From NCBI RefSeq assembly GCF_001610895.1, contig NZ_CP011273.1, positions 5,766,001-5,830,000 of the forward strand: a stretch of DNA of 64,000 nt, in the 5' to 3' direction. The translations under genes were made by a program, and so were the position numbers. The notes beneath the pieces are model-generated. The model ran no database searches. It saw only the letters and a list, made by a program, of their open reading frames with translations, and had not been told where the DNA came from. This document shows positions 33,557 to 44,422 of this stretch, piece by piece; the first letter of the stretch is position 1, and each line of letters begins with the position of its first letter. Source of the DNA: Planctomyces sp. SH-PL62 (GTDB lineage: Bacteria > Planctomycetota > Planctomycetia > Isosphaerales > Isosphaeraceae).

Positions 33557-34333
33557 TCAGGTCCCGAATTCGGGGCGGCGTAGGGAGAGCTGCGACTGGA
33601 GCCGCTGGATGATCGACGAGTGCATCTGCGAGACGCGGGATTCGCTCAGGTCGAGCGTCGCGCCGATCTCCTTCATCGTCAGTTCCTCATAATAGTAGAG
33701 GATGATGATGAGGCGTTCGTTGCGGTTGAGCCCCTTCGTCACCATGCGCATCAGGTCTTTGCGCTGGAGCCGACGGGTGGGGTCCTCCCCCTTCTTGTCC
33801 TCGAGGATGTCGATCTCGCGGACGTCCTTGTAGCTGTCGGTCTCGTACCACTTCTTGTTGAGGCTGATGAGGCCGACGGCGTTGGCGTCGGACGCCATCT
33901 TCTCGAACTCCTCCATCGGCAGGCCGAGTCGCTCGGCCAGCTCGGCGGGGGTGGGAGGTCGGCCGTGCCTGGCCTCCAGCTCCTTGCGAGCCTCTTCCAT
34001 CTTGGTGGCCTTGGAGCGGACCAGCCTGGGCACCCAGTCCATGGTCCGCAGCTCGTCGAGCATGGCCCCCCGGATCCGCGGGACGCAGTAGGTCTCGAAC
34101 TTGACGCCGCGCGTCAGGTCGAAGGCGTCGATCGCGTCCATCAGGCCGAAGACGCCCGCCGAGATCAAGTCGTCGAGGTCGACCCCCTCGGGGAGGCGCT
34201 GCCAGATGCGTTCCGCGTTGTACTTGACCAGGGCCAAGTAGCGCTCGACCAACTGGTTCCGCATCTCCGTGGTGGGCTGTTCCTTGAACTCCCGCCAGAG
34301 TTCCGTCACATCCACATCCACTTTGGTTGACAT
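33557..34333 (-). CDS. fliA: RNA polymerase sigma factor FliA/WhiG (sigma-28)
   Basis: 258 residues from ATG 34333 with GGAGGT 5-6 bases upstream. Region 2: LALVKYNAERIWQRLPEGVD and DLISAGVFGLMDAIDAFDL; region 3: EEARKELEARHGRPPTPAELA; region 4: LNRNERLIIILYYYEELTMK with helix-turn-helix MKEIGATLDLSESRVSQMHS. These are the FliA/WhiG features. Sigma-28 directs late flagellar genes in motile bacteria. It ends the flagellar export run here. No FlgM-like anti-sigma gene was found nearby. Confidence 0.95.
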   Translation of the reverse strand: MSTKVDVDVTELWREFKEQPTTEMRNQLVERYLALVKYNAERIWQRLPEGVDLDDLISAGVFGLMDAIDAFDLTRGVKFETYCVPRIRGAMLDELRTMDWVPRLVRSKATKMEEARKELEARHGRPPTPAELAERLGLPMEEFEKMASDANAVGLISLNKKWYETDSYKDVREIDILEDKKGEDPTRRLQRKDLMRMVTKGLNRNERLIIILYYYEELTMKEIGATLDLSESRVSQMHSSIIQRLQSQLSLRRPEFGT

Positions 34334-34644
34334 CCTGACCTCCGTGTCGGCTGCGCGAGGGGGCGCACATCCCTGTGCGGCCCCCGGCGACGGACGAGGA
34401 ATCCGTCCCCGGTGATCGCGGGGCGTTTCGCCCGATCCACCGCGTCCCGCCCCGCCGGGGTCCCGGTCCGCGTCGATCGGGGTCGTCGCCCCTGTCCCCT
34501 CGCCATTCAAGGAACTCGATCCTCATTACTCATCGGACGATCCGGCCATTCGTCTTGAGCCTTGCCATCCGAAGAATCCGAACAACCCGCGCGATCAAAC
34601 CAACCCCGCCCATCCCTGGGTGTGGGGAGGCCCCGTCGCGGCGG
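34334..34644. other. Gap where flhG would be expected to continue
   Basis: Between the 65-residue DQAxxLR gene and fliA. No ATPase domain or other ORF of sense is encoded on either strand. Only the fliA ribosome-binding site (GGAGGT) was recognised. Confidence 0.5.
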
Positions 34645-34842
34645 TCACCCCGCGTTCCGGGGGGTCCCGCGTCCGCCCCGAGGGGCCTGTCCCGAGAGCC
34701 ATCCGGCCCGAACGGACGCGTCCCGGAGCCCGGGGGCTTCGCGGTCGGCGTCGATGCGGGGGGACGCGGGTGCGGAGGTCATCCGCTCCCAGTCCCTCTG
34801 GGCTCGAACCAGTCGTCTCAGGCTCTCGGCTTGGTCGTTCAT
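34645..34842 (-). CDS. 65-residue FlhG N-terminal-like protein (possible FlhF activator)
   Basis: From ATG 34842, which has a GGAGG site exactly 6 bases upstream, the protein reads MNDQAESLRRLVRAQRDWER and then a Pro/Gly/Arg-rich tail. DQAESLR matches DQAxxLR, the N-terminal helix by which FlhG (YlxH) of Bacillus stimulates the FlhF GTPase. In most polar-flagellated bacteria flhG, a MinD-like ATPase of about 290 residues, stands between flhF and fliA; here only the activator segment remains. An alternative coupled start (ATG 34923, overlapping the flhF stop) would add 27 Arg/Ser-rich residues. It could be a working mini-activator or a remnant; the good ribosome-binding site favours expression. 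Confidence 0.68.
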   Translation of the reverse strand: MNDQAESLRRLVRAQRDWERMTSAPASPRIDADREAPGLRDASVRAGWLSGQAPRGGRGTPRNAG

Positions 34843-34919
34843 GGAACGCCTCCGTGGGGACGCGGCGGAAAGGGACGAGGCACTCGGCGATCGGTCTCGG
34901 TCTCGGTCTCGGGCTCGAT

Positions 34920-36053
34920 TCATGCGATCGACTCCTCGCCCAGGATCAGGCGGGCGAGCCGGTCGCGGGCCGCGAGTTCGAGGTCGTCGGGGACGGCCTG
35001 GCCGGTCGTCAGATAGGCGACCGGTCGGTCGGCGCGACCCAAAACCGCGAGCAAGGGCCCCAGAGTCTCGGCTTCGTCGAGCTTGGTCAAGATCAAGCGG
35101 TCGGGACGGGCCGGAGCGAAGAGGTCGGCCGCGGCGCGCAGGCCGCGGGGCGAGGTCGACGCCGACAGGACCAGATGGACCTCGTCCGGCCGAAGACGCC
35201 CCAGCAGGTCGCCCAGCTCGCGGATCCGGTCCTGGTCGCGAGGGCTCCGCCCGGCGGTGTCCACGAGGACCACGTCCACCGCGCCAAGGTCGTCCAGGGC
35301 GCGTCGGGCGGCGTCGGGATCGTCGGCGACGGCCAGCGGCAGGTCGATGATGTCGGCGTAGGTCCGAAGTTGTTCCACGGCGGCGATCCGGTAGGCGTCC
35401 ACCGTGAGGAGGCCGACCTTCACGCCCTGACGGAGCTTGAGCGAGGCGGCGAGCTTGGCGAGGGTCGTCGTCTTGCCGACGCCCGTCGGCCCGACCAGCG
35501 CCACGACCCGCCGCGTCCCGGAGACCGCCCGGATCGGCGGCGCGACGGCCAGGGCGTCTTCCAGGGCTCGCCGGACGGCCGCCAGGGCCGCGGCGGGGGT
35601 CGCCAGGTCCTCCGGCGCCGAGCCGCTCGCGGCCTCGCGGACGAGGGCCCGCGCCGACGGCTCCGGCGCGTCGGCCTCCAGAAGTCGGGCGTAGGCCGAG
35701 GCCAGTTCGCGGGGGAGGTCGGGCGACCACTGCTCCATGAGGCCGCGTCGGCTGAGCGCGCCGACCATCGCGTGGACCCGGCCCAGGTCGCCCCGCAAGC
35801 CGCGCGGCGGCCTGGCGGCGGCGGGGGCCGCGAGCCATTCCGAGGACGGCGACGAGGCGTCGACCTCGACCGTCGAGTCGGCGGACAGGCCGAAGAGCCG
35901 TCGGCGGCGGACCTCGCGGGCGGCGAGGATCACGGCGTCGCCGCCGAGGTCCCGGCGCACCCGCGCCAGCGCTTCCCGCATCGTCCGGCCTCGATAGGTC
36001 CTGGCGTCCACGGCCCCTTCCATCCCCCGCATTGCGGGCCTCTCGACGCTCAT
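34920..36053 (-). CDS. flhF: Flagellar SRP-type GTPase FlhF
   Basis: 377 residues. The N-terminal B region opens RTYRGRTMREALARVRRDLG. The NG GTPase domain has G1 VALVGPTGVGKTTTLAKLAA, VDAYRIAAVEQLRTYADII, G3 VLVDTAGRSPRDQDR and G4 LILTKLDEAETLG. FlhF places or numbers polar flagella and is activated by FlhG. The start overlaps the flhA stop as ATGA. Its motifs are intact, which suits the idea that the DQAxxLR mini-protein downstream acts on it. Confidence 0.94.
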   Translation of the reverse strand: MSVERPAMRGMEGAVDARTYRGRTMREALARVRRDLGGDAVILAAREVRRRRLFGLSADSTVEVDASSPSSEWLAAPAAARPPRGLRGDLGRVHAMVGALSRRGLMEQWSPDLPRELASAYARLLEADAPEPSARALVREAASGSAPEDLATPAAALAAVRRALEDALAVAPPIRAVSGTRRVVALVGPTGVGKTTTLAKLAASLKLRQGVKVGLLTVDAYRIAAVEQLRTYADIIDLPLAVADDPDAARRALDDLGAVDVVLVDTAGRSPRDQDRIRELGDLLGRLRPDEVHLVLSASTSPRGLRAAADLFAPARPDRLILTKLDEAETLGPLLAVLGRADRPVAYLTTGQAVPDDLELAARDRLARLILGEESIA

Positions 36054-38317
36054 GCGAACGCCTCGGTCGTCGCGAACGTCACCGGATCGACCGCGGGCTC
36101 GGCCGCCTCGGAGTCCTCGGCGGGCTCCTCGACGATCGTCCCCAGGACCTCGACGGGCGTGTCGCGGGGGATCTCGCGCTGGCTGAGGACGACCAGCCGG
36201 GGCAGGTCGGCCCGGGTCAGGTCCTTGAGCACGGCGCGGGCCGGGGCCGAGGTCAGGACGATCGGCGGCAGGCCGACCTCGATCAGGGCGCCCACGCCTT
36301 GCGCCACGGCGCGGAGGATGCTGCGGACGGTCTCGTCGCCCAGGGCTTCCGAGGGATGGGCCTCGGACTGGCCCGCCACGATCGAGAGCCGGGAGTTGAG
36401 GTCCTGCGAGAGCGTGACCACGCGGATCCGGCCGTCGCCCGAGCGGTGGCTCTCGGTGATCTGGCGCGCCAGGCTCTGGCGGGTCAGCTCGGTCAGCGGC
36501 TCGACGTCCGTGGTCTTGCCGGCGTGGACCGCCAGCGTCTCGAGGATCGTCTCCAGGTCGCGGATGCTCACCTGTTCGCGCAAGAGATTCTGCAAGAGCC
36601 GCTGAAGTTCGCCCGGCCTGAGCAGCCCGGGGACGACCTCGCCGGCGAGCGTGGGGGCCGTGGCCCGGACGCGGTCGAGCAGGCGTTCGATCTGGTCGCG
36701 GGTGAGCAGCTCGTCGGCGTGGCTGCGGACGATCTCGCCGAAGTGGGCGGCGACGACGGCCGACGCCTCCAGGATCTTGCAGCCGGCCAGCTCGGCGACC
36801 TCGCGGCCCTCGGCGTGGATCCAGACGGCCGCCTCGCCCGTGGCCGGGTCGACGGCCTCACGGCCTTCGGGACGCTCGGCCAGGCCCGCCGGCGGGATCG
36901 CCAGCAGGCGCCCGGCGTAGGCCGTCCCGCCGCCGACGATGGTCCCACGGATCTTCACCCGGTATTCGTGCGCGGAGAGCCCGATCTCGTCGTGGATGCG
37001 GACCTGGGGGACGATCAATCCCAGCTCGCGGGCGACGTTCTGGCGGACGGTCCGAAGCCGCTCCAGCAGGTTCCCGCCCCGGGTCGAGTCGGCCAGGCTG
37101 ATGAGTCGATAGCCGATCTCCAGCTCCAGCAGGTCGACGTGCAGGAGGTTCTCCATGTCGTCGGAGGCCGGGTCGCCGGAGACGCGGAGGGGCTCGGCGT
37201 GCGGGGCCTGGGGGGAAGGGTTCGGCCGGGTCGTCGTCGGTTCGGCGGAGCCCGCTTCCTCGACCCGGATCGGCGTCCGCTTCGGGGGCGAGGTCGGCCG
37301 TGCTTCGGGCTCGGCCTCGTCCCGTTCGTAAGGGGACGCGTCCCGCAGCCGATAGGCCCGCCAGCCGAGGACGCCCGACAGGACCAGGAGCGGCAGCTTG
37401 GGGAGCGGCGTGAGGGCCAGCAGGCCGAGGAAGACCGACGAGACGCCCAGCACGCTGGGATTCCGCGTGAGCTGGCCGACGACGTCGCGGCCGATGTCGC
37501 TGGCCGAGGACGACCGCGTGACGATCAGGCCCGCCGCCAGCGAGATCAGGAACGCCGGGATCTGGCTCACCAGCCCGTCGCCGATCGTCAGCTTGGTGAA
37601 GACCTCCACGGCCTCGACCGGCCGCATGTCGTGCTGGACCACGCCGATGAACAGGCCGCCGGCGATGTTGACCATCAGGATGATCACGCCCGCCACGGCG
37701 TCGCCCCGGACGAACTTGCCGGCGCCGTCCATCGCCCCGAAGAAGTCGGCCTGGCGATAGACCTCGTCGCGACGGGCGTGCGCCTGATGCTGGTCGATCA
37801 GCCCGGCGTGGAGGTCGGAGTCGATGGCCATCTGGCGGCCGGGGAGGCCGTCGAGCATGAACCGCGCGGCGACCTCGCTGATCCGCGTGGCCCCCTTCGT
37901 GATGACGACGAACTGGATCACGACGAGGATCGCGAAGAGGATCGCGCCGACGAGCACCTGGTCGCCGGCGACGAACTCGCCGAAGGCCCGGATGACCGAG
38001 CCGGCCGCGTCGACGCCGTGCTCGCCGCCCCGCGTCAGGATCAGTCGGGTGGTGGCCACGTTGAGGACCAGCCGGGTCAGCGTGGTCGTCAGCAGGATCG
38101 TCGGGAAGGCGCTGAACTCCTGCGGCGATCGGATCGCCAGCGTCGTCAGCAGCACCAGGACGGCGAGCGTCAGGTTGGCCGACAGGAGGAGGTCGAGCAG
38201 CTCCGGGGAGACCGGCACGACGAAGACCAGGACCGCCCCGACGATGGTGATCGGCAGGACGAGTCCCGAGGCGGTTCGCCACGCGGCGGCGGCACGATCC
38301 GATGTCGACGGAGGCAT
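36050..38317 (-). CDS. flhA: Flagellar export gate protein FlhA
   Basis: 755 residues from ATG 38317. Eight membrane segments are expected in the first 330 residues. The FHIPEP-type cytoplasmic loop is well conserved: GRQMAIDSDLHAGLIDQHQA, then ADFFGAMDGAGKFVRGDAVA with the key Asp. The C-terminal cytoplasmic domain is present (VRIHDEIGLSAHEYRVKIRG and PTLAGEVVPGLLRPGELQRL). FlhA forms the nonameric ring that energises export with the proton gradient. The length is slightly above the usual 690-700 because of a Pro-rich linker. It is coupled to flhF. Confidence 0.95.
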   Translation of the reverse strand: MPPSTSDRAAAAWRTASGLVLPITIVGAVLVFVVPVSPELLDLLLSANLTLAVLVLLTTLAIRSPQEFSAFPTILLTTTLTRLVLNVATTRLILTRGGEHGVDAAGSVIRAFGEFVAGDQVLVGAILFAILVVIQFVVITKGATRISEVAARFMLDGLPGRQMAIDSDLHAGLIDQHQAHARRDEVYRQADFFGAMDGAGKFVRGDAVAGVIILMVNIAGGLFIGVVQHDMRPVEAVEVFTKLTIGDGLVSQIPAFLISLAAGLIVTRSSSASDIGRDVVGQLTRNPSVLGVSSVFLGLLALTPLPKLPLLVLSGVLGWRAYRLRDASPYERDEAEPEARPTSPPKRTPIRVEEAGSAEPTTTRPNPSPQAPHAEPLRVSGDPASDDMENLLHVDLLELEIGYRLISLADSTRGGNLLERLRTVRQNVARELGLIVPQVRIHDEIGLSAHEYRVKIRGTIVGGGTAYAGRLLAIPPAGLAERPEGREAVDPATGEAAVWIHAEGREVAELAGCKILEASAVVAAHFGEIVRSHADELLTRDQIERLLDRVRATAPTLAGEVVPGLLRPGELQRLLQNLLREQVSIRDLETILETLAVHAGKTTDVEPLTELTRQSLARQITESHRSGDGRIRVVTLSQDLNSRLSIVAGQSEAHPSEALGDETVRSILRAVAQGVGALIEVGLPPIVLTSAPARAVLKDLTRADLPRLVVLSQREIPRDTPVEVLGTIVEEPAEDSEAAEPAVDPVTFATTEAFA

Positions 38318-38574
38318 TCCATTCCACTCCCAACGGACCGAACGACGTACGCCCCACGACGCCGGCGCGGAGAGCGATCTTCGCCCCGCGCCATCCCGCC
38401 GAAACCTCCCGGCCATCCTCGCCGGCCGCCCCTCGCAATCGAAGGGAGGGCGACCCGTCGAGCCTTGTCCCGATGGGCCCGAATCGGCCCACGTGATGTG
38501 TGCGGGGACAATACTTCGATCGCCCCGGATTGTCCAGGGCGAATGACGCTCCGGCCGGGGTTTCGGCGGCCGGA

Positions 38575-38800
38575 TCAGGCGATCGGCCAGGCCTCGCGAA
38601 GCTGGGCGAGAAGGAGGGGATCGGCGATCGCCGTTCGGGGCGCGGAAGCGTCCGGCCGCGACGCGATCCGCAAGGCCAGCTGCGCCGCCTCGCGTTGCGG
38701 GAGCTTCGACCGGACGGCCGCCTGGCGGATCGAGGCGGCCGTCGCGCCCCTCGCGACGACCCTCACGAACACCTTGCGCGGCGGCGGGCCCCCGCGAGCA
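38575..38800 (-). pseudogene. Out-of-frame C-terminal part of flhB
   Basis: PPPRKVFVRVVARGATAASI and KLPQREAAQLALRIASRPD continue the FlhB cytoplasmic domain but lie one base out of frame with the upstream part. Inserting one G in the GCGGGGGCCC run (about 38787-38795) joins them into a 343-residue protein ending LLAQLREAWPIA. The joining point corresponds to the NPTH autocleavage site of normal FlhB. Confidence 0.65.
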
Positions 38801-39605
38801 CGACGACGAGCCCGGCGTCGCCGAGCAGGGCGAGCGAGGAGCCGTCCAGCAGCTCGGGCGTGCCGTCGCGAAACGCCTGGGCGAGCCGCCGACGCGAGGC
38901 GCGGACCTTCGGGTCCCCCTCGATCGTCCGCAGGTCCTCGCGATGCTCCTCCGGGGTCGTCCTCAGCATGGCCTCGAACCGGGCGGACCGAAGGCCGTAA
39001 TCCACCAGCCCCACGGCGAGCATCGCGCCTGCCAGGGCCCACGCGGGGGTTGTGAGGATCGCGAACGCGGCCCGCGCGGCCTCGGGGAACTCCAGGAAGC
39101 TCAGCCCCTGCAAGGCTCCCCACCGCGAGCGAACGCCCCAGGCCGCCACGACCGCCAGGATCATCGCCTTCACGACCGACCAGACGCTCCGCTCCAGCTT
39201 CGCGACGAAGCCCCCGTCCCGTCCCACCCGCCACAGCCGCGAGAGATCGGGCGTGATGAGGGCCGGAGCCCAGAGCCCGCGGACCTGGAACTGGTGGCCC
39301 GCGAACGCGCCGAGGGCGAACCCGCCCACCACCACGCCGACCGGCAAGGCCACGCCCAGCATCGCGTCTCGCACGATCCGGGCCAGGTCGAACGGGTCCG
39401 AAAGTCGGGCGACGGGGCCGATCAACGGCGACCGCACGAGGTCGACGAGCGCCCCGGTCAGCCGGGTCTCCATCCCGGCCAGCAGCGCGACCGCCACGAG
39501 CCAGCCGGCCGCGGCGGTCAGCTCCGGGCTGTGCGCCGCCTGGCCCTGCTCGCGGGCGAGCTGGCGACGCATCGGTGAAGCGGGCTGCGTGCGATCCTCC
39601 GACAT
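38763..39605 (-). CDS. flhB: Flagellar export switch protein FlhB, frameshifted, no NPTH
   Basis: From ATG 39605 (GGGAGG upstream) the readable frame gives 280 residues. SPMRRQLAREQGQAAHSPEL is the basic FlhB start; about four membrane segments follow, and the linker GDPKVRASRRRLAQAFRDG matches the FlhB cytoplasmic linker. Normal FlhB then has VxxNPTH, cleaved between Asn and Pro to switch substrate class. Here the aligned segment is LVVVLAGG-PPP, so NPTH is absent, and the frame breaks exactly there, ending RRRARCS. Either a base is missing in the sequence or the two halves are made separately. It lies between fliR and flhA, as usual. Confidence 0.85.
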   Translation of the reverse strand: MSEDRTQPASPMRRQLAREQGQAAHSPELTAAAGWLVAVALLAGMETRLTGALVDLVRSPLIGPVARLSDPFDLARIVRDAMLGVALPVGVVVGGFALGAFAGHQFQVRGLWAPALITPDLSRLWRVGRDGGFVAKLERSVWSVVKAMILAVVAAWGVRSRWGALQGLSFLEFPEAARAAFAILTTPAWALAGAMLAVGLVDYGLRSARFEAMLRTTPEEHREDLRTIEGDPKVRASRRRLAQAFRDGTPELLDGSSLALLGDAGLVVVLAGARRRARCS

Positions 39606-39625
39606 CGATCCCGTTCCTCCCTCGC

Positions 39626-40393
39626 TCAGAAGGCGCCGCGAGCCCAGTCGAGCCAGGCGGCGTCCAGGCAGGCCGCCAGCGCGGCGAGCCCCGCCATCAC
39701 GAGCAAGACGCCCAGCAGCGCGCGGATCGGCAGCGAGAGCGCCATCAGCGGCACGCTCGGCGCGAGCCGGCCGAGCCATCCCAGGGCCACCCCCGCCGTC
39801 GCCAGCGCGACCGCCGGCGGCGCGGCGGCGTGGACCGCCAGCTTGAGCGCCTCGGCCGCCTGCGCGAAAATCCCCTGGATCGTGGCCCGCTCGAAGACCA
39901 GCCGACCGGCCGGGACCGCGCGGAAGCTCTGGAGCAAGGCCTCGACCATCACCAGCGGCCCGTCGACCGCCAGGAACGCGACGATCGCGAGCAGGCCGTA
40001 AAGATGCCCGAGCGCCGTCAGCTCCTCGCCCGTCTCGGGGTCGAACAGCGACGCCGTCGACATCCCCGCCTGCGCCGCGACGAGGTCGCCCGCCTGCTTC
40101 GCCCCCGCGACCACCAGCGACGCCGACAGCCCGAGCAGGCCGCCGACCAGAAGCTCGTTGACCACCAGCCAGGCCAGTCCGTAAGGCGAGGTCGGCGCGC
40201 CGACCAGCGGCGCGGCGAGGGGGATCATCCAGGCCCCCAGGATCAGGGCCAGGACGATGCGGAACCGCCAGTCGATCCCCGGCGCGGCCAGCACCGGCGC
40301 CGTGAAGCAGACCCCCGCCGCCCTCGCCGCGATCAGGGCGCAGGCCGCCCCGTTCGCGGTGAGCCAGCCGACGTCGAACGGTAGGTCGGTCAT
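39626..40393 (-). CDS. fliR: Flagellar export protein FliR
   Basis: 255 residues, six or so membrane segments. ARAAGVCFTAPVLAAPGIDW and RFRIVLALILGAWMIPLA are the FliR start; LAWLVVNELLVGGLLGLSAS and AGMSTASLFDPETGEELTAL are further conserved blocks. FliR is part of the FliPQR export channel inside the basal body. The length is normal. Its stop is 20 bases from the flhB start. Confidence 0.93.
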   Translation of the reverse strand: MTDLPFDVGWLTANGAACALIAARAAGVCFTAPVLAAPGIDWRFRIVLALILGAWMIPLAAPLVGAPTSPYGLAWLVVNELLVGGLLGLSASLVVAGAKQAGDLVAAQAGMSTASLFDPETGEELTALGHLYGLLAIVAFLAVDGPLVMVEALLQSFRAVPAGRLVFERATIQGIFAQAAEALKLAVHAAAPPAVALATAGVALGWLGRLAPSVPLMALSLPIRALLGVLLVMAGLAALAACLDAAWLDWARGAF

Positions 40394-40418
40394 CTCGGCG
40401 CCGCCCTTCGCATCCAGA

Positions 40419-40679
40419 TCAAAGCATATCCGGGATCGAGCCGATGAGGTCGACCGTGAAGTCGATCCAGCGGGCCGCGAGCCAGGGGAGCAGCACCAAC
40501 GTCGCGACCACCACCGCCGCGAGGCGGGGGACCAACCCGACGACCGGCTCGTTCAATTGGGTCAAGGTCTGGAGGACGTTCACCGCCAGCCCGACCACCA
40601 TCGCCGCCGCGAGCAGCGGGCCCCCCAGCATCAGCGAGAGCCTAAGCGCCTCGCGCGTCCAGTCGATCGCCTGGTCCAT
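40419..40679 (-). CDS. fliQ: Flagellar export protein FliQ
   Basis: 86 residues with two membrane hairpins: MDQAIDWTREALRLSLMLGG, VVGLAVNVLQTLTQLNEPVV and LVPRLAAVVVATLVLLPWLA. These are the FliQ blocks, including Q-x-LTQLNE. It belongs to the FliPQR channel. GTG 40685 is an equally good start since the GGAGGGGGG site lies better spaced for it; a GTG at 40703, directly after the fliP stop, is less likely. Confidence 0.92.
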   Translation of the reverse strand: MDQAIDWTREALRLSLMLGGPLLAAAMVVGLAVNVLQTLTQLNEPVVGLVPRLAAVVVATLVLLPWLAARWIDFTVDLIGSIPDML

Positions 40680-40703
40680 GTCCACGCGGAGCCCCCCTCC
40701 CAC

Positions 40704-41603
40704 CTAAGCCGAAAATCCGGCGAGCAGCATGTCGGCCACGAGCAGCCAGCCGTCGGCCAGCACGAAGACGATCAGCTTCACGGGCGTCGAAACCAGGGTC
40801 GGCGGCAGCATGAACAGCCCCATCGCCGCCAGCACCGCCGAGACCACGAGGTCGATCACCAGGAACGGAAGATAGAGCATGAACCCGATCTTCAGGGCCG
40901 TCGTCAGCTCGCTCAGGATGTACGCCGGGGCGACCACGCCGATGGCGAAGTCCTCCGGGCGTTCCGGCTGCTCCGCGCCCGGCGTGCCGCCGCGCGAGCG
41001 CTCGTGGAGCGTCGTCAAGTAATCCTGATGTTCGGTCATGACGATCTGGTCGACCATGAACGTCTTGATGGGGATCGACCCCGCGTTCCAGGCGTCGACC
41101 GCGCCCGCCCGGCCCGCCATGTACGGCTCGACCGCGTCGGCGTAGACCCGTTCGGCGACCGGCCGCATGATCAGGGCGCTGAGCAGCAACGCCAGCGCGG
41201 TCAGGACCTGATTGCCGGGGACCTGGGGGCTCCCCAGGGCCTGCCGAAGCAGGATCAGGACGATGTTGATCCGCACGAACGGCGTGATCATGAGCAGGGC
41301 GACGGGCGCCAGCGAGACCGCGCCGAACAGCACCACCGACTGCACCGTGCGGGCCGCGCCCGACACGTCCACCGCCGCGTCCGGCCGCGGCGCGGGCTTC
41401 GCGGCGTCCGATTCGGGGGCCGCATCGACGACCACCGCGGGCTCGTTGAGCCGCGAGACGGCCGCGGACTTGCGCACGGCGCTCGTCGGCGTCTGCGCCT
41501 GCGACCGCCCCGCCAGGACCGGCGAGAGCATGACCAACAGCGCCACGACGCTCGCCATCGGGAGGACGAGGAGTTTGCGGTCTTCCCTCCGCGTCCCGCT
41601 CAT
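40704..41603 (-). CDS. fliP: Flagellar export protein FliP
   Basis: 299 residues. A signal peptide (LPMASVVALLVMLSPVLAG), as in other FliP proteins, then a nonconserved stretch to residue 85. Conserved core: ITPFVRINIVLILLRQALGS, PQVPGNQVLTALALLLSAL, PIKTFMVDQIVMTEHQDYLT, APAYILSELTTALKIGFMLY and LVVSAVLAAMGLFMLPPTLV. It forms the core of the export channel. The start overlaps the fliO stop as ATGA, and its TAG precedes fliQ by 24 bases. Confidence 0.95.
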   Translation of the reverse strand: MSGTRREDRKLLVLPMASVVALLVMLSPVLAGRSQAQTPTSAVRKSAAVSRLNEPAVVVDAAPESDAAKPAPRPDAAVDVSGAARTVQSVVLFGAVSLAPVALLMITPFVRINIVLILLRQALGSPQVPGNQVLTALALLLSALIMRPVAERVYADAVEPYMAGRAGAVDAWNAGSIPIKTFMVDQIVMTEHQDYLTTLHERSRGGTPGAEQPERPEDFAIGVVAPAYILSELTTALKIGFMLYLPFLVIDLVVSAVLAAMGLFMLPPTLVSTPVKLIVFVLADGWLLVADMLLAGFSA

Positions 41604-42088
41604 GATTCGTCTCCGATCCGCACGTCGAAGCGTCTTTGCGCGGGGACCGGTCGATGCGAAGCGGAGGGCGAGGCGTCCTCGACGGCCTCGTCGTCAAGCT
41701 CGCCGAGGAGCGTGGGTGCGCCCTGGGGGCCGGCGCCGATCAGCAGCGTCCGGCCGCCGGCGCGGACGGCGAAGACGGCGTGTTTGGGCGGCAGCGCGAC
41801 TCGGCCGACGACCTGGAGCTTGATCGAGGGGCCGCCCGCGCCCTGACGTCGCGCGGCGATGCAGACCACTCCGGCCCCGCCCAGGACCAGCAGCATGAAG
41901 GCCGTCCCCAGCCACCAGCCCTGCGACCCGGTCGCCAGCGACGACGCCCGCGCCCGCTTGCTCGCGACCGTCGGCCGCGAAGCCTTCGCCGCGTCGGCCG
42001 CGGGGGCGGAAGCGTCCTGCGCCGAGGCGGCCAGGGTCGCCGCCAGCAGCAGCGCGGGGACCAGGAGGGCGATCTTGGCTCTTGCCAT
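41600..42088 (-). CDS. fliO: Flagellar biosynthesis protein FliO-like
   Basis: 162 residues: signal peptide (IALLVPALLLAATLAASAQ), an Ala-rich stretch, one membrane helix (WLGTAFMLLVLGGAGVVCIA), and a short cytoplasmic domain with IKLQVVGRVALPPKHAVFAV and GRTLLIGAGPQG. The 'vvgrvaLxpkhavxvvrvggr.lLlG' pattern is the FliO signature. FliO helps FliP assemble. Position before fliP and coupling by ATGA support the call. Confidence 0.88.
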   Translation of the reverse strand: MARAKIALLVPALLLAATLAASAQDASAPAADAAKASRPTVASKRARASSLATGSQGWWLGTAFMLLVLGGAGVVCIAARRQGAGGPSIKLQVVGRVALPPKHAVFAVRAGGRTLLIGAGPQGAPTLLGELDDEAVEDASPSASHRPVPAQRRFDVRIGDES

Positions 42089-42144
42089 GCGAGAGTCCTT
42101 CGTGAGTCGCGGGTGCGGTTCGGCGGGGGTCGGCCGGGCGGGGG

Positions 42145-42789
42145 TCAGACCAGGACTTCCTCGCGACCGCTGGGGTCGGGCAGGTCGATCACGCCCTGGT
42201 CGTAGAGGATGCGGATCCGCTCCGAGACCTCGACCTGCGCGACCTCGGTGTCGGAGAGCCGGAACGGGCCGAGGTTCTCCAGATAGCGCTGGAGCATCTG
42301 ACCGGCCGAGGCGTTCAGGGCGCCGAGCACCTTGGCCCGCAGCGGGGGGGCCGATCCGGCGAGGGCCAGGGCCCAGGCCTCGGCGTCCTCGGCGCGAAAG
42401 GCGGCGCGGATCTCGCGGTCGTCCATGCGGAGGAGGTCTTCGAAGACGAAGCAGAGCCGCCGCAGGCCGAGGCTGAGGAACTCCTCCAGGACGACGGCCT
42501 GCTCGGCCGGGTCGACCCGATCCATCCGGGCGATCTCCCAGGTGACCGCGTCGACGGCGTCCCGATCGAGATGGGCGAGCATCTGGGTGGATAGCGACTG
42601 CTCCAGGCTCACCAGGACGATCGCCGCCTTGCGGAGCGGGGGGATCGCGGCGACCGACGGGGCGTCGGACGGCGAATCTTCGGCCGCGAGGGGGTCGGCC
42701 CCCGCGCCGAGGTCGCCGCGCGGGAACTCGGCGCCGGATTGGGGGCGGTGGGCCGCTCGGGCGGACGTGGACGAGGTCGACGCATTCAT
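42145..42789 (-). CDS. Short FliG-like protein without middle domain
   Basis: 214 residues against about 330 in typical FliG. Residues 50-100 match the FliF-binding N-terminal domain (LRKAAIVLVSLEQSLSTQML), and residues 105-205 match the C-terminal domain (CFVFEDLLRMDDREIRAAFR; LENLGPFRLSDTEVAQVEV). The middle domain with EHPQR, which binds FliM, is missing. In an alignment by eye the stator-facing residues of E. coli FliG, K264, R281, D288 and D289, become A, S, R and Y; only R297 is kept. It may hold FliF or assemble an export platform rather than produce torque. Coupled to fliF by ATGA. Confidence 0.88.
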   Translation of the reverse strand: MNASTSSTSARAAHRPQSGAEFPRGDLGAGADPLAAEDSPSDAPSVAAIPPLRKAAIVLVSLEQSLSTQMLAHLDRDAVDAVTWEIARMDRVDPAEQAVVLEEFLSLGLRRLCFVFEDLLRMDDREIRAAFRAEDAEAWALALAGSAPPLRAKVLGALNASAGQMLQRYLENLGPFRLSDTEVAQVEVSERIRILYDQGVIDLPDPSGREEVLV

Positions 42790-44300
42790 GACCTTCCCCC
42801 CCCCTGGCTCGTCCAGCGATTCAGCACGCTGAACGCGGTCTCGGGATTGCGGCGGACGAATTCGAGCACCCGTTCGGTCGGCGCCGGCGCGCCCGCCGCG
42901 CCTCGGTGATATCGCAGATCGCCTCGCGACGGCGAGGCCCGTCGGGCCGGCGGGCGGCTGCCGAAGAGCCAGGTGCCAAAGGCCACCAGCGAGGCGGCGG
43001 CGGCCCCCGCCGCGCCCGCCATCGCCCAGTCGCGAGCCGACCGCCGCGACGACGCCGCGACGCTCGCCGGCGTGTGCTCGGGGGGCATCCCGTCGAGCAA
43101 AAGCTCGACGAGCGTCGGCTCCCAGTCGACCGGATCGGCCTCGGGGACGACCAACTCGACGGTGTCGCGTATCAGCGCCTCGGTGCGGTCCTTCAGGGCG
43201 AGGTGCTCGTCCTGCGAGGCGTGGCCGCCGTCGGGCATGAGGCCGGCGTTGAAATAGTAGCTTCGCGGCACGAGCACCCGGACCCGGCCCCGGCCTCGGG
43301 CCGGCTCGGGGGCCTCGGCGACCGCGACGGTTTCGGCGGCGGGAGGCAGGTCGTCCGGCTCCAGTTCCATGGCGCGATTGAGGCCGACGGCCAGCCCCGC
43401 CTCCAGCGGCGATGCGGTCCCGGGGCGTCGCCGCGCGGCGGTTTCGGTCGCGCGGGGCTCGGGAGGAGCGGGCGGGTCCTCGATCTTCACGTCGACCCGC
43501 GCGCCCTTGATCCAGTCCAGCTTGTCGAGGATGCGGCGGCTCAGGTCTTCCTCGCGGGCCCGGTTGTTCGAGAGCGCGGTGAGGGCCGGGTTGTCGGCGT
43601 CGCGGTAGAGGCGGCCCTCGTCGTCGACGACGGTGAACGATTGCCGGGTCAGGCCGGGCTCGGCCGCGGTGAGGATCGAGGCGATCGACTCGACGGTGGC
43701 GGAAGGAAGCTCGCGGGTCTGTTCGGTGCGGACTCGCACCAGGGCCGTGGTCCGGGTCGTCGGCCGCAGCACGCCGCGCTGGCGTTCGCGGCTGATCCAG
43801 ACGAAGGAGCTTTCGACCCCCGGCAGGTCGTCGATCATCGATTCGAAGACCTTGGCCCGCTCGCGCTGGGAGCGTTCCTCCTTGTCGCGAGGGGATTCCC
43901 AGAAGGACGAGGCGGCGGCGCCCTCGCGCAGCTCGTCGAGCGAGCGCGGGCCGAGGTCGAGCTTGGCGACGATCGCGGCGGCGGCTTCGGCCGATCGGCC
44001 GGCGACGCTCACGCGGCGGTCGTCCACCTTGTAGTCGATGTTCTGGGAGAGGAGCGCCCGCTCGACCTTGTCGAGGTCGTCCTGGCGGAAGGGCCGTCCC
44101 GAGGCGAGGTAGGCGCGCTCGGCCGGGGCGATCGACCAGGCGGCCAGGCAGCCGGCGACGGCGAGGCCGCCGGCCATCAGGGCCAGCAGCGCGAACCGCG
44201 CGGGTGCGGACCGTCCGGCCGTCGCCTTGCGGGTGCCATCGAGCCAGGAGCGGAGACGGGCCGGCGTCTTGCCGAGAGCGTCGAAGCGGAAGGTCGCCAT
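42786..44300 (-). CDS. fliF: Flagellar MS-ring protein FliF
   Basis: 504 residues from ATG 44300 with GGAGG five bases upstream. Membrane helix 1 (FALLALMAGGLAVAGCLAAW), a RBM1-like domain (DDLDKVERALLSQNIDYKVD), RBM2 (MIDDLPGVESSFVWISRERQ; LTRQSFTVVDDEGRLY), a Pro/Glu-rich inserted part, PRSYYFNAGLMPDGGH near the beta-collar, membrane helix 2 (AGAAAASLVAFGTWLFG), and the FliG-binding tail FVRRNPETAFSVLNRWTSQG. The MS ring is the base of the export apparatus. A TTGACA/GATAAC promoter lies upstream and probably drives the whole flagellar run. Confidence 0.93.
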   Translation of the reverse strand: MATFRFDALGKTPARLRSWLDGTRKATAGRSAPARFALLALMAGGLAVAGCLAAWSIAPAERAYLASGRPFRQDDLDKVERALLSQNIDYKVDDRRVSVAGRSAEAAAAIVAKLDLGPRSLDELREGAAASSFWESPRDKEERSQRERAKVFESMIDDLPGVESSFVWISRERQRGVLRPTTRTTALVRVRTEQTRELPSATVESIASILTAAEPGLTRQSFTVVDDEGRLYRDADNPALTALSNNRAREEDLSRRILDKLDWIKGARVDVKIEDPPAPPEPRATETAARRRPGTASPLEAGLAVGLNRAMELEPDDLPPAAETVAVAEAPEPARGRGRVRVLVPRSYYFNAGLMPDGGHASQDEHLALKDRTEALIRDTVELVVPEADPVDWEPTLVELLLDGMPPEHTPASVAASSRRSARDWAMAGAAGAAAASLVAFGTWLFGSRPPARRASPSRGDLRYHRGAAGAPAPTERVLEFVRRNPETAFSVLNRWTSQGGGRS

Positions 44301-44394
44301 CCATCCTCCACGGATCCGCCCCCGACGCGAGAGTCGCGCGGCGGCTCCGCCCATCCTTGGGCTTGGGGCGCCGAGCGCGTCACGGGGCGACCGT

Positions 44395-44422
44395 GTTATC
44401 CACATTCCGCCCGATCTGTCAA
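44395..44422 (-). promoter_or_regulatory. Candidate sigma-70 promoter of the flagellar run
   Basis: On the minus strand TTGACA (44422 to 44417), a 16-base spacer, and GATAAC (44400 to 44395) stand about 95 bases before the fliF start, in the gap after ftsY. The -35 is a perfect consensus. No sigma-54 (GG-N10-GC) or sigma-28 (TAAA-N15-GCCGATAA) element was seen here. Confidence 0.5.

Follow-up and report, generated by a model that had tools for sequence, protein, structure and literature searches.

In Planctomyces sp. SH-PL62, the gene between flhF and fliA encodes a protein of only 65 aa, which comprises the N-terminal DQAxxLR helix of FlhG and a disordered tail but no MinD-type ATPase domain. 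By analogy with FlhG proteins studied elsewhere, we consider with good confidence that this protein, here designated mini-FlhG, would act as a peptide dedicated to activating the GTPase of FlhF within a stripped flagellar-type apparatus. It is also likely that mini-FlhG is a free-standing activator of an SRP-type GTPase, FlhG having been cut several times independently to its helix, which would keep FlhF cycling in an apparatus devoid of rod, hook and filament. The window, i.e. the whole stretch of DNA analysed (64,000 nt; contig NZ_CP011273.1, positions 5,766,001 to 5,830,000), belongs to a complete (100%) genome of 6.8 Mb that is congeneric with Paludisphaera soli, and has the following features in this region:

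33557..34333, minus strand: fliA/whiG-type sigma factor gene (Pfam Sigma70 r2, r3 and r4)
34531..34558, minus strand: sigma-28-like promoter element TCAAG-N17-TCCGATG, between mini-flhG and fliA
34645..34842, minus strand: mini-flhG, 65 aa, enhancer helix and disordered tail without ATPase domain
34777..34842, minus strand: enhancer (activator) helix, codons 1–22 (AlphaFold2, conservation and pN/pS)
34816..34836, minus strand: DQAxxLR motif, residues 3–9, DQAESLR (sequence; invariant in 15/15 mini-FlhG proteins)
34849..34853, minus strand: ribosome-binding site GGAGG, 6 nt before the mini-flhG ATG (sequence)
34920..36053, minus strand: flhF, SRP-type GTPase, 377 aa (TIGR03499 and Foldseek; catalytic residues D219, R222, Q228, D265 and R269 all present)
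36050..38416, minus strand: flhA, upstream neighbour in the cluster (PF00771, E 5.8e-230)
38763..44405, minus strand: flhB, fliR, fliQ, fliP, fliO, fliG and fliF (export gate and MS ring; same cluster)
42181..42468, minus strand: match to the FliG C-domain, within the preceding gene block

The mini-flhG gene and its protein

The product of the minus-strand ORF at 34645–34842 (full translation MNDQAESLRRLVRAQRDWERMTSAPASPRIDADREAPGLRDASVRAGWLSGQAPRGGRGTPRNAG, beginning with MNDQAESLRRLVRA) is predicted by AlphaFold2 to form a single helix at residues 3–22 (block pLDDT 84–87), the remainder being disordered. Scans against Pfam and NCBIfam gave no matches, and the MinD-like ATPase domain with its deviant Walker A motif is absent. 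A search of the PDB with the 65-aa protein likewise gave no matches, as expected for a motif so short; with the mini-FlhG alignment as the query, the lone match was a porin, which was dismissed as a chance match. The identity of the upstream gene is clear, since its product scores 197 bits against the FlhF equivalog model TIGR03499 (cut-off 174) and its best structural matches in Foldseek include the FlhF structures 8r9r, 2px0 and 2px3.

A reading of the sequence alone had proposed that the gene between flhF and fliA is an flhG cut to its N-terminal DQAxxLR helix, that it has an ideal ribosome-binding site, and that no ATPase domain follows in the next 311 bases. All three proposals were borne out: position, conservation and selection (see below) agree with the first, GGAGG lies 6 nt before the ATG, and the 311-bp gap before fliA, which is too short to encode the roughly 250 aa of an ATPase domain, holds the sigma-28-like promoter element instead. 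The assignment of mini-flhG as a reduced flhG, orthologous by position to the gene for full-length FlhG, is thus supported.

Distribution of mini-FlhG and probable loss of the ATPase domain

Among 45 genomes of the family (Isosphaeraceae-type), 41 contain flhF, and 25 of these 41 encode a MinD-type FlhG, nearly always directly after flhF. The same gene order prevails more widely, full FlhG usually being encoded directly after flhF in 80 flhF loci from planctomycete genomes. In 15 family genomes, this position is occupied by an ORF of 59–78 aa starting with M.DQAxxLR, one of the 15 with a GTG start codon. These 15 genomes represent six genera, namely five of the six members of the window's genus and every flhF-bearing member of genera g2, g6, g8, g12 and g14. 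Residues D3, Q4, A5, L8 and R9 are invariant in all 15 proteins, and a genome-wide profile search detected an FlhG-level ATPase in none of the 15 genomes. The sixth member of the window's genus, G005, has a degenerate copy (MDDPAESLGRRARARR, starting with MDDPAESLGRR; L191:1218–1361). The short DQAxxLR ORF downstream of flhF is therefore conserved in relatives, and the reduction of FlhG to its helix is real. It is not limited to the window genome: six genera show it, probably as a result of several independent events. That the ORF is open merely by chance, in GC-rich DNA open in many frames, is suggested by the overlapping open frames on both strands that are usual at such GC content, but this explanation, to which we assign practically no probability, is refuted by the fact that 15 genomes share both its position and its motif, and by selection at the amino acid level.

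A complete flhG elsewhere in the window genome, which had been named as a possible counter-argument, was rejected. With a planctomycete FlhG profile, the best match in this genome was of the ParA type (E 2.9e-15), whereas almost every true FlhG protein of the family scores between 1e-62 and 1e-127, and the divergent copy of G009 scores 1e-28. It is conceivable that FlhG function has been rebuilt in trans, with one of the several ParA-type ATPases of the genome recruiting mini-FlhG. However, the six ParA/MinD-like ORFs that were scanned had partition ParA rather than MinD or FlhG as their best models, and all ATPase matches map away from the flagellar cluster; we regard such recruitment as highly improbable.

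Outside the family, none of the 32 flhF-positive, FlhG-negative genomes contains mini-FlhG, and a widespread occurrence of mini-FlhG in planctomycetes was therefore rejected for this sample. Eight of the 32 have long ORFs with a DQA or QQA start that are divergent or degenerate in the ATPase domain, and in the other 24 a recognisable DQA ORF is absent within 1.5 kb. Several side observations were made at these and other loci. In another planctomycete group (loci L068, L074, L075, L214 and L230), flhF is followed by FlhG-like ORFs of about 200–220 aa, which start with DQA, QQA or SQA followed by ..LR or ..LRC and lack a recognisable Walker A motif; from their sequences, these are apparent pseudo-ATPase FlhG proteins. 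The FlhG of G009 (L199), in which the middle of the ATPase domain is divergent or partly missing, is a possible intermediate. Genomes G152, G167, G233, G062, G245 and others have flhF with no FlhG or DQA ORF found nearby (loci of this non-family kind include L208, L220, L222, L231 and L233), and their FlhF proteins are often altered at otherwise invariant sites.

On a tree of FlhF, the mini-FlhG state requires 5 changes, at least 3 of which are forced by well-supported branches, and it is therefore probable that the MinD-like ATPase domain was lost repeatedly in the family; as the tree is that of a single gene, in which G020 is placed with uncertainty, the number of changes is to be taken as approximate. 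The manner of loss may be read from the C-terminus. At its far C-terminus, mini-FlhG of genera g2, g6 and g8 is similar to the tail of full FlhG in the family (RRPGFFAALAARWALGRV), as seen for G016 (p 0.001), G008 (p 0.001), G012 (p 0.008) and G007 (p 0.009), whereas in the window's genus any such similarity is weak, with p 0.014 for G001 and p 0.09 for the window protein. When the tails were scored by hydrophobic moment, which proved a less useful test than similarity to the FlhG tail, G016 alone was significant among the mini-FlhG proteins. The FlhG-like tails in these three genera suggest that the ATPase domain was removed from within the gene, and the simplest history would be that the domain was excised with both ends kept and that the tail was then lost in some lineages.

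Selection on the helix and its covariation with FlhF

Using the five intact congeners, a pN/pS of 0.19 was obtained for codons 2–18 of mini-FlhG (an earlier estimate for codons 2–20 was 0.23), compared with 0.29 for the NG domain of FlhF and 0.38 for the whole FlhF protein. The helix is thus under purifying selection stronger than that on the FlhF NG domain. The tail of mini-FlhG, with a pN/pS of 0.78 in the same genomes, is nearly free of constraint.

The FlhF sequences fall into three groups, 75 accompanied by full FlhG, 14 by mini-FlhG and 20 from genomes in which a DQA gene was not detected. The catalytic core (K194, T195, D219, R222, D265 and R269) is kept in all three groups. At six other sites (Y221, A224, T231, A267, D273 and G332), all 14 FlhF proteins with mini-FlhG and almost all of the 75 with full FlhG have the conserved residue, whereas each site is altered in 5 to 9 of the 20 without a detected DQA gene. 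In G005 both partners have changed: the mini-FlhG motif has decayed from DQA to DPA, and FlhF (L014/L191) has lost R269 (DTAGR to DTPGA) as well as Y221, A224, T231 and A267. Since the sites are kept with the helix and relaxed without it, and since both have decayed in G005, the DQA helix and the FlhF GTPase seem to share one fate, being either both retained or both lost. This covariation of sequences is to be taken as supporting evidence, being a trend that is confounded by phylogeny, with some DQA-less controls keeping most of the sites.

These data bear on the possibility that mini-FlhG is a dying remnant, i.e. that the ATPase went with the flagellum and that the leftover helix is disappearing and has no function at present. 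Consistent with such a course are the failure to detect flagellin in the family and rod/hook domains in its flhF-bearing members, the degenerate copy in one of six congeners, the unconserved tail, and the several planctomycetes outside the family that have flhF with no FlhG or DQA ORF found nearby. However, the helix is held more tightly than FlhF while the tail drifts, the motif does not vary among 15 genomes of six genera, in which the reduced state has probably arisen several times, and the decay of the helix in G005 is accompanied by decay of the catalytic motif of FlhF. We therefore judge a functionless remnant to be unlikely, and favor mini-FlhG being an activator of FlhF.

Proposed function and the flagellar-type apparatus

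FlhF and FlhG are regarded as one switch, in which the timing of contact between the enhancer helix and FlhF is set by the ATPase cycle of FlhG. The glutamine of the DQAxxLR motif stimulates FlhF (PMC12826062; PMC11236974), and the structure of FlhF complexed with the FlhG N-terminal helix has been solved (PMC12713375; PDB 3syn). In Bacillus subtilis, an FlhG mutant with this glutamine changed to alanine resembles an flhG deletion, from which the authors inferred that FlhG serves above all to stimulate FlhF (PMC12327844).

On this basis, we propose that repeated loss of the ATPase domain would have left a small protein consisting of the DQAxxLR enhancer helix, together in some genera with a C-terminal tail that may resemble the membrane-targeting end of FlhG. 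Mini-FlhG would dock on the GTP-bound FlhF homodimer as the helix of full-length FlhG does, with Gln4 as the supplied catalytic glutamine, and would trigger GTP hydrolysis and then release of FlhF. Because ATP-dependent dimerisation and membrane cycling, which would otherwise gate the helix, are gone, mini-FlhG would act constitutively. Binding to FlhF, activation of its GTPase and constitutive action are most likely, as judged from the FlhG family. It is quite unlikely that the helix instead binds FlhF in some other role (as chaperone, dimer inhibitor or, in genera with the C-terminal tail, membrane anchor) or acts on FtsY or Ffh. In favor of such roles are the FlhG-like tails of G016, G008, G012 and G007 and the FtsY gene, which is also located within the flagellar-type cluster, but invariance falls on the residues of the motif that provides the catalytic glutamine in studied FlhG proteins, the catalytic residues of FlhF are all kept, and the window's genus retains the helix while being largely without the tail.

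Full-length FlhG (YlxH/FleN/MinD2; examples are 4rz2/4rz3, 'site-determining protein', and B. subtilis YlxH) shares with mini-FlhG the N-terminal DQAxxLR helix and the position of its gene directly after flhF; in some mini-FlhG genera, the C-terminal tail resembles that of the family's FlhG. Mini-FlhG differs in its length (59–78 aa vs about 300) and in the absence of a MinD-type ATPase domain, which also deprives it of the ATP-dependent dimer, the membrane cycle and the surface to which FliM, FlrA or GpsB dock. Although all its parts are FlhG parts, it is, lacking the ATPase, strictly outside the MinD-type FlhG family. The helix seen in the 3syn complex (PMC12713375) corresponds to what mini-flhG encodes on its own, but there it is part of a larger protein, whereas mini-flhG occurs naturally as an independent gene, with a ribosome-binding site and a tail of its own. 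Pseudomonas FleN, another FlhG-family member with one functional half, is its mirror image, keeping the ATPase and lacking DQAxxLR (PMC12713375). The activity proposed for mini-FlhG also resembles that of SRP RNA on Ffh/FtsY, a small ATPase-free activator from which an SRP-GTPase dimer receives a catalytic group (PMC12826062); SRP RNA is, however, an RNA rather than a peptide and acts on another GTPase pair. We found no description of an ATPase-less or planctomycete FlhG of this kind in the open-licence literature.

The existence of a natural gene for the helix alone suggests that activation of FlhF can be uncoupled from ATP control. If the proposed function is true, GTPase activation has been separated in nature from the MinD-type ATPase that controls it, and mini-FlhG, if its activity holds, would offer a minimal activator, simple to synthesise, with which the FlhF GTPase could be dissected. 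Together, the repeated loss of the ATPase, the Walker-A-less FlhG proteins and the co-decay of helix and FlhF would form an evolutionary series on the role of each half of FlhG.

The initial framing of the pair in terms of flagellar number control is probably moot. Flagellin (PF00669) was detected in 71 of the 129 genomes of a class-wide sample, all 71 outside the family, and in none of the 45 family genomes. The rod/hook C-terminal domain Flg_bbr_C (PF06429) is absent from 44 of the 45, and the lone genome with it lacks flhF, so that no flhF-bearing member of the family has the rod/hook domain. FliG is present in 36 of the 45. With flagellin and the rod/hook domain undetected, FlhF and mini-FlhG would thus work in a stripped flagellar-type apparatus, the FlhF cycle serving its basal and export parts (FliF, FliG, FlhAB and FliOPQR). 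Isosphaeraceae have been described as poor in flagellar genes and as lacking motile swarmer cells (PMC5352709), with which our family data agree; by gene content, the family seems to be non-motile and to have lost its flagella. A flagellar-type apparatus without filament would then be under selection family-wide in apparently non-motile bacteria.

In the window, the region 33557–44405 encodes FliF, FliG, FlhA, FlhB, FliOPQR, FlhF and the sigma factor, a set consistent with a filament-less flagellar-type apparatus. The sigma-28-like element TCAAG-N17-TCCGAT(A/G) recurs at about position -225 relative to fliA in 17 of the 17 genomes in which the fliA start could be placed, which suggests autoregulation of the sigma factor.
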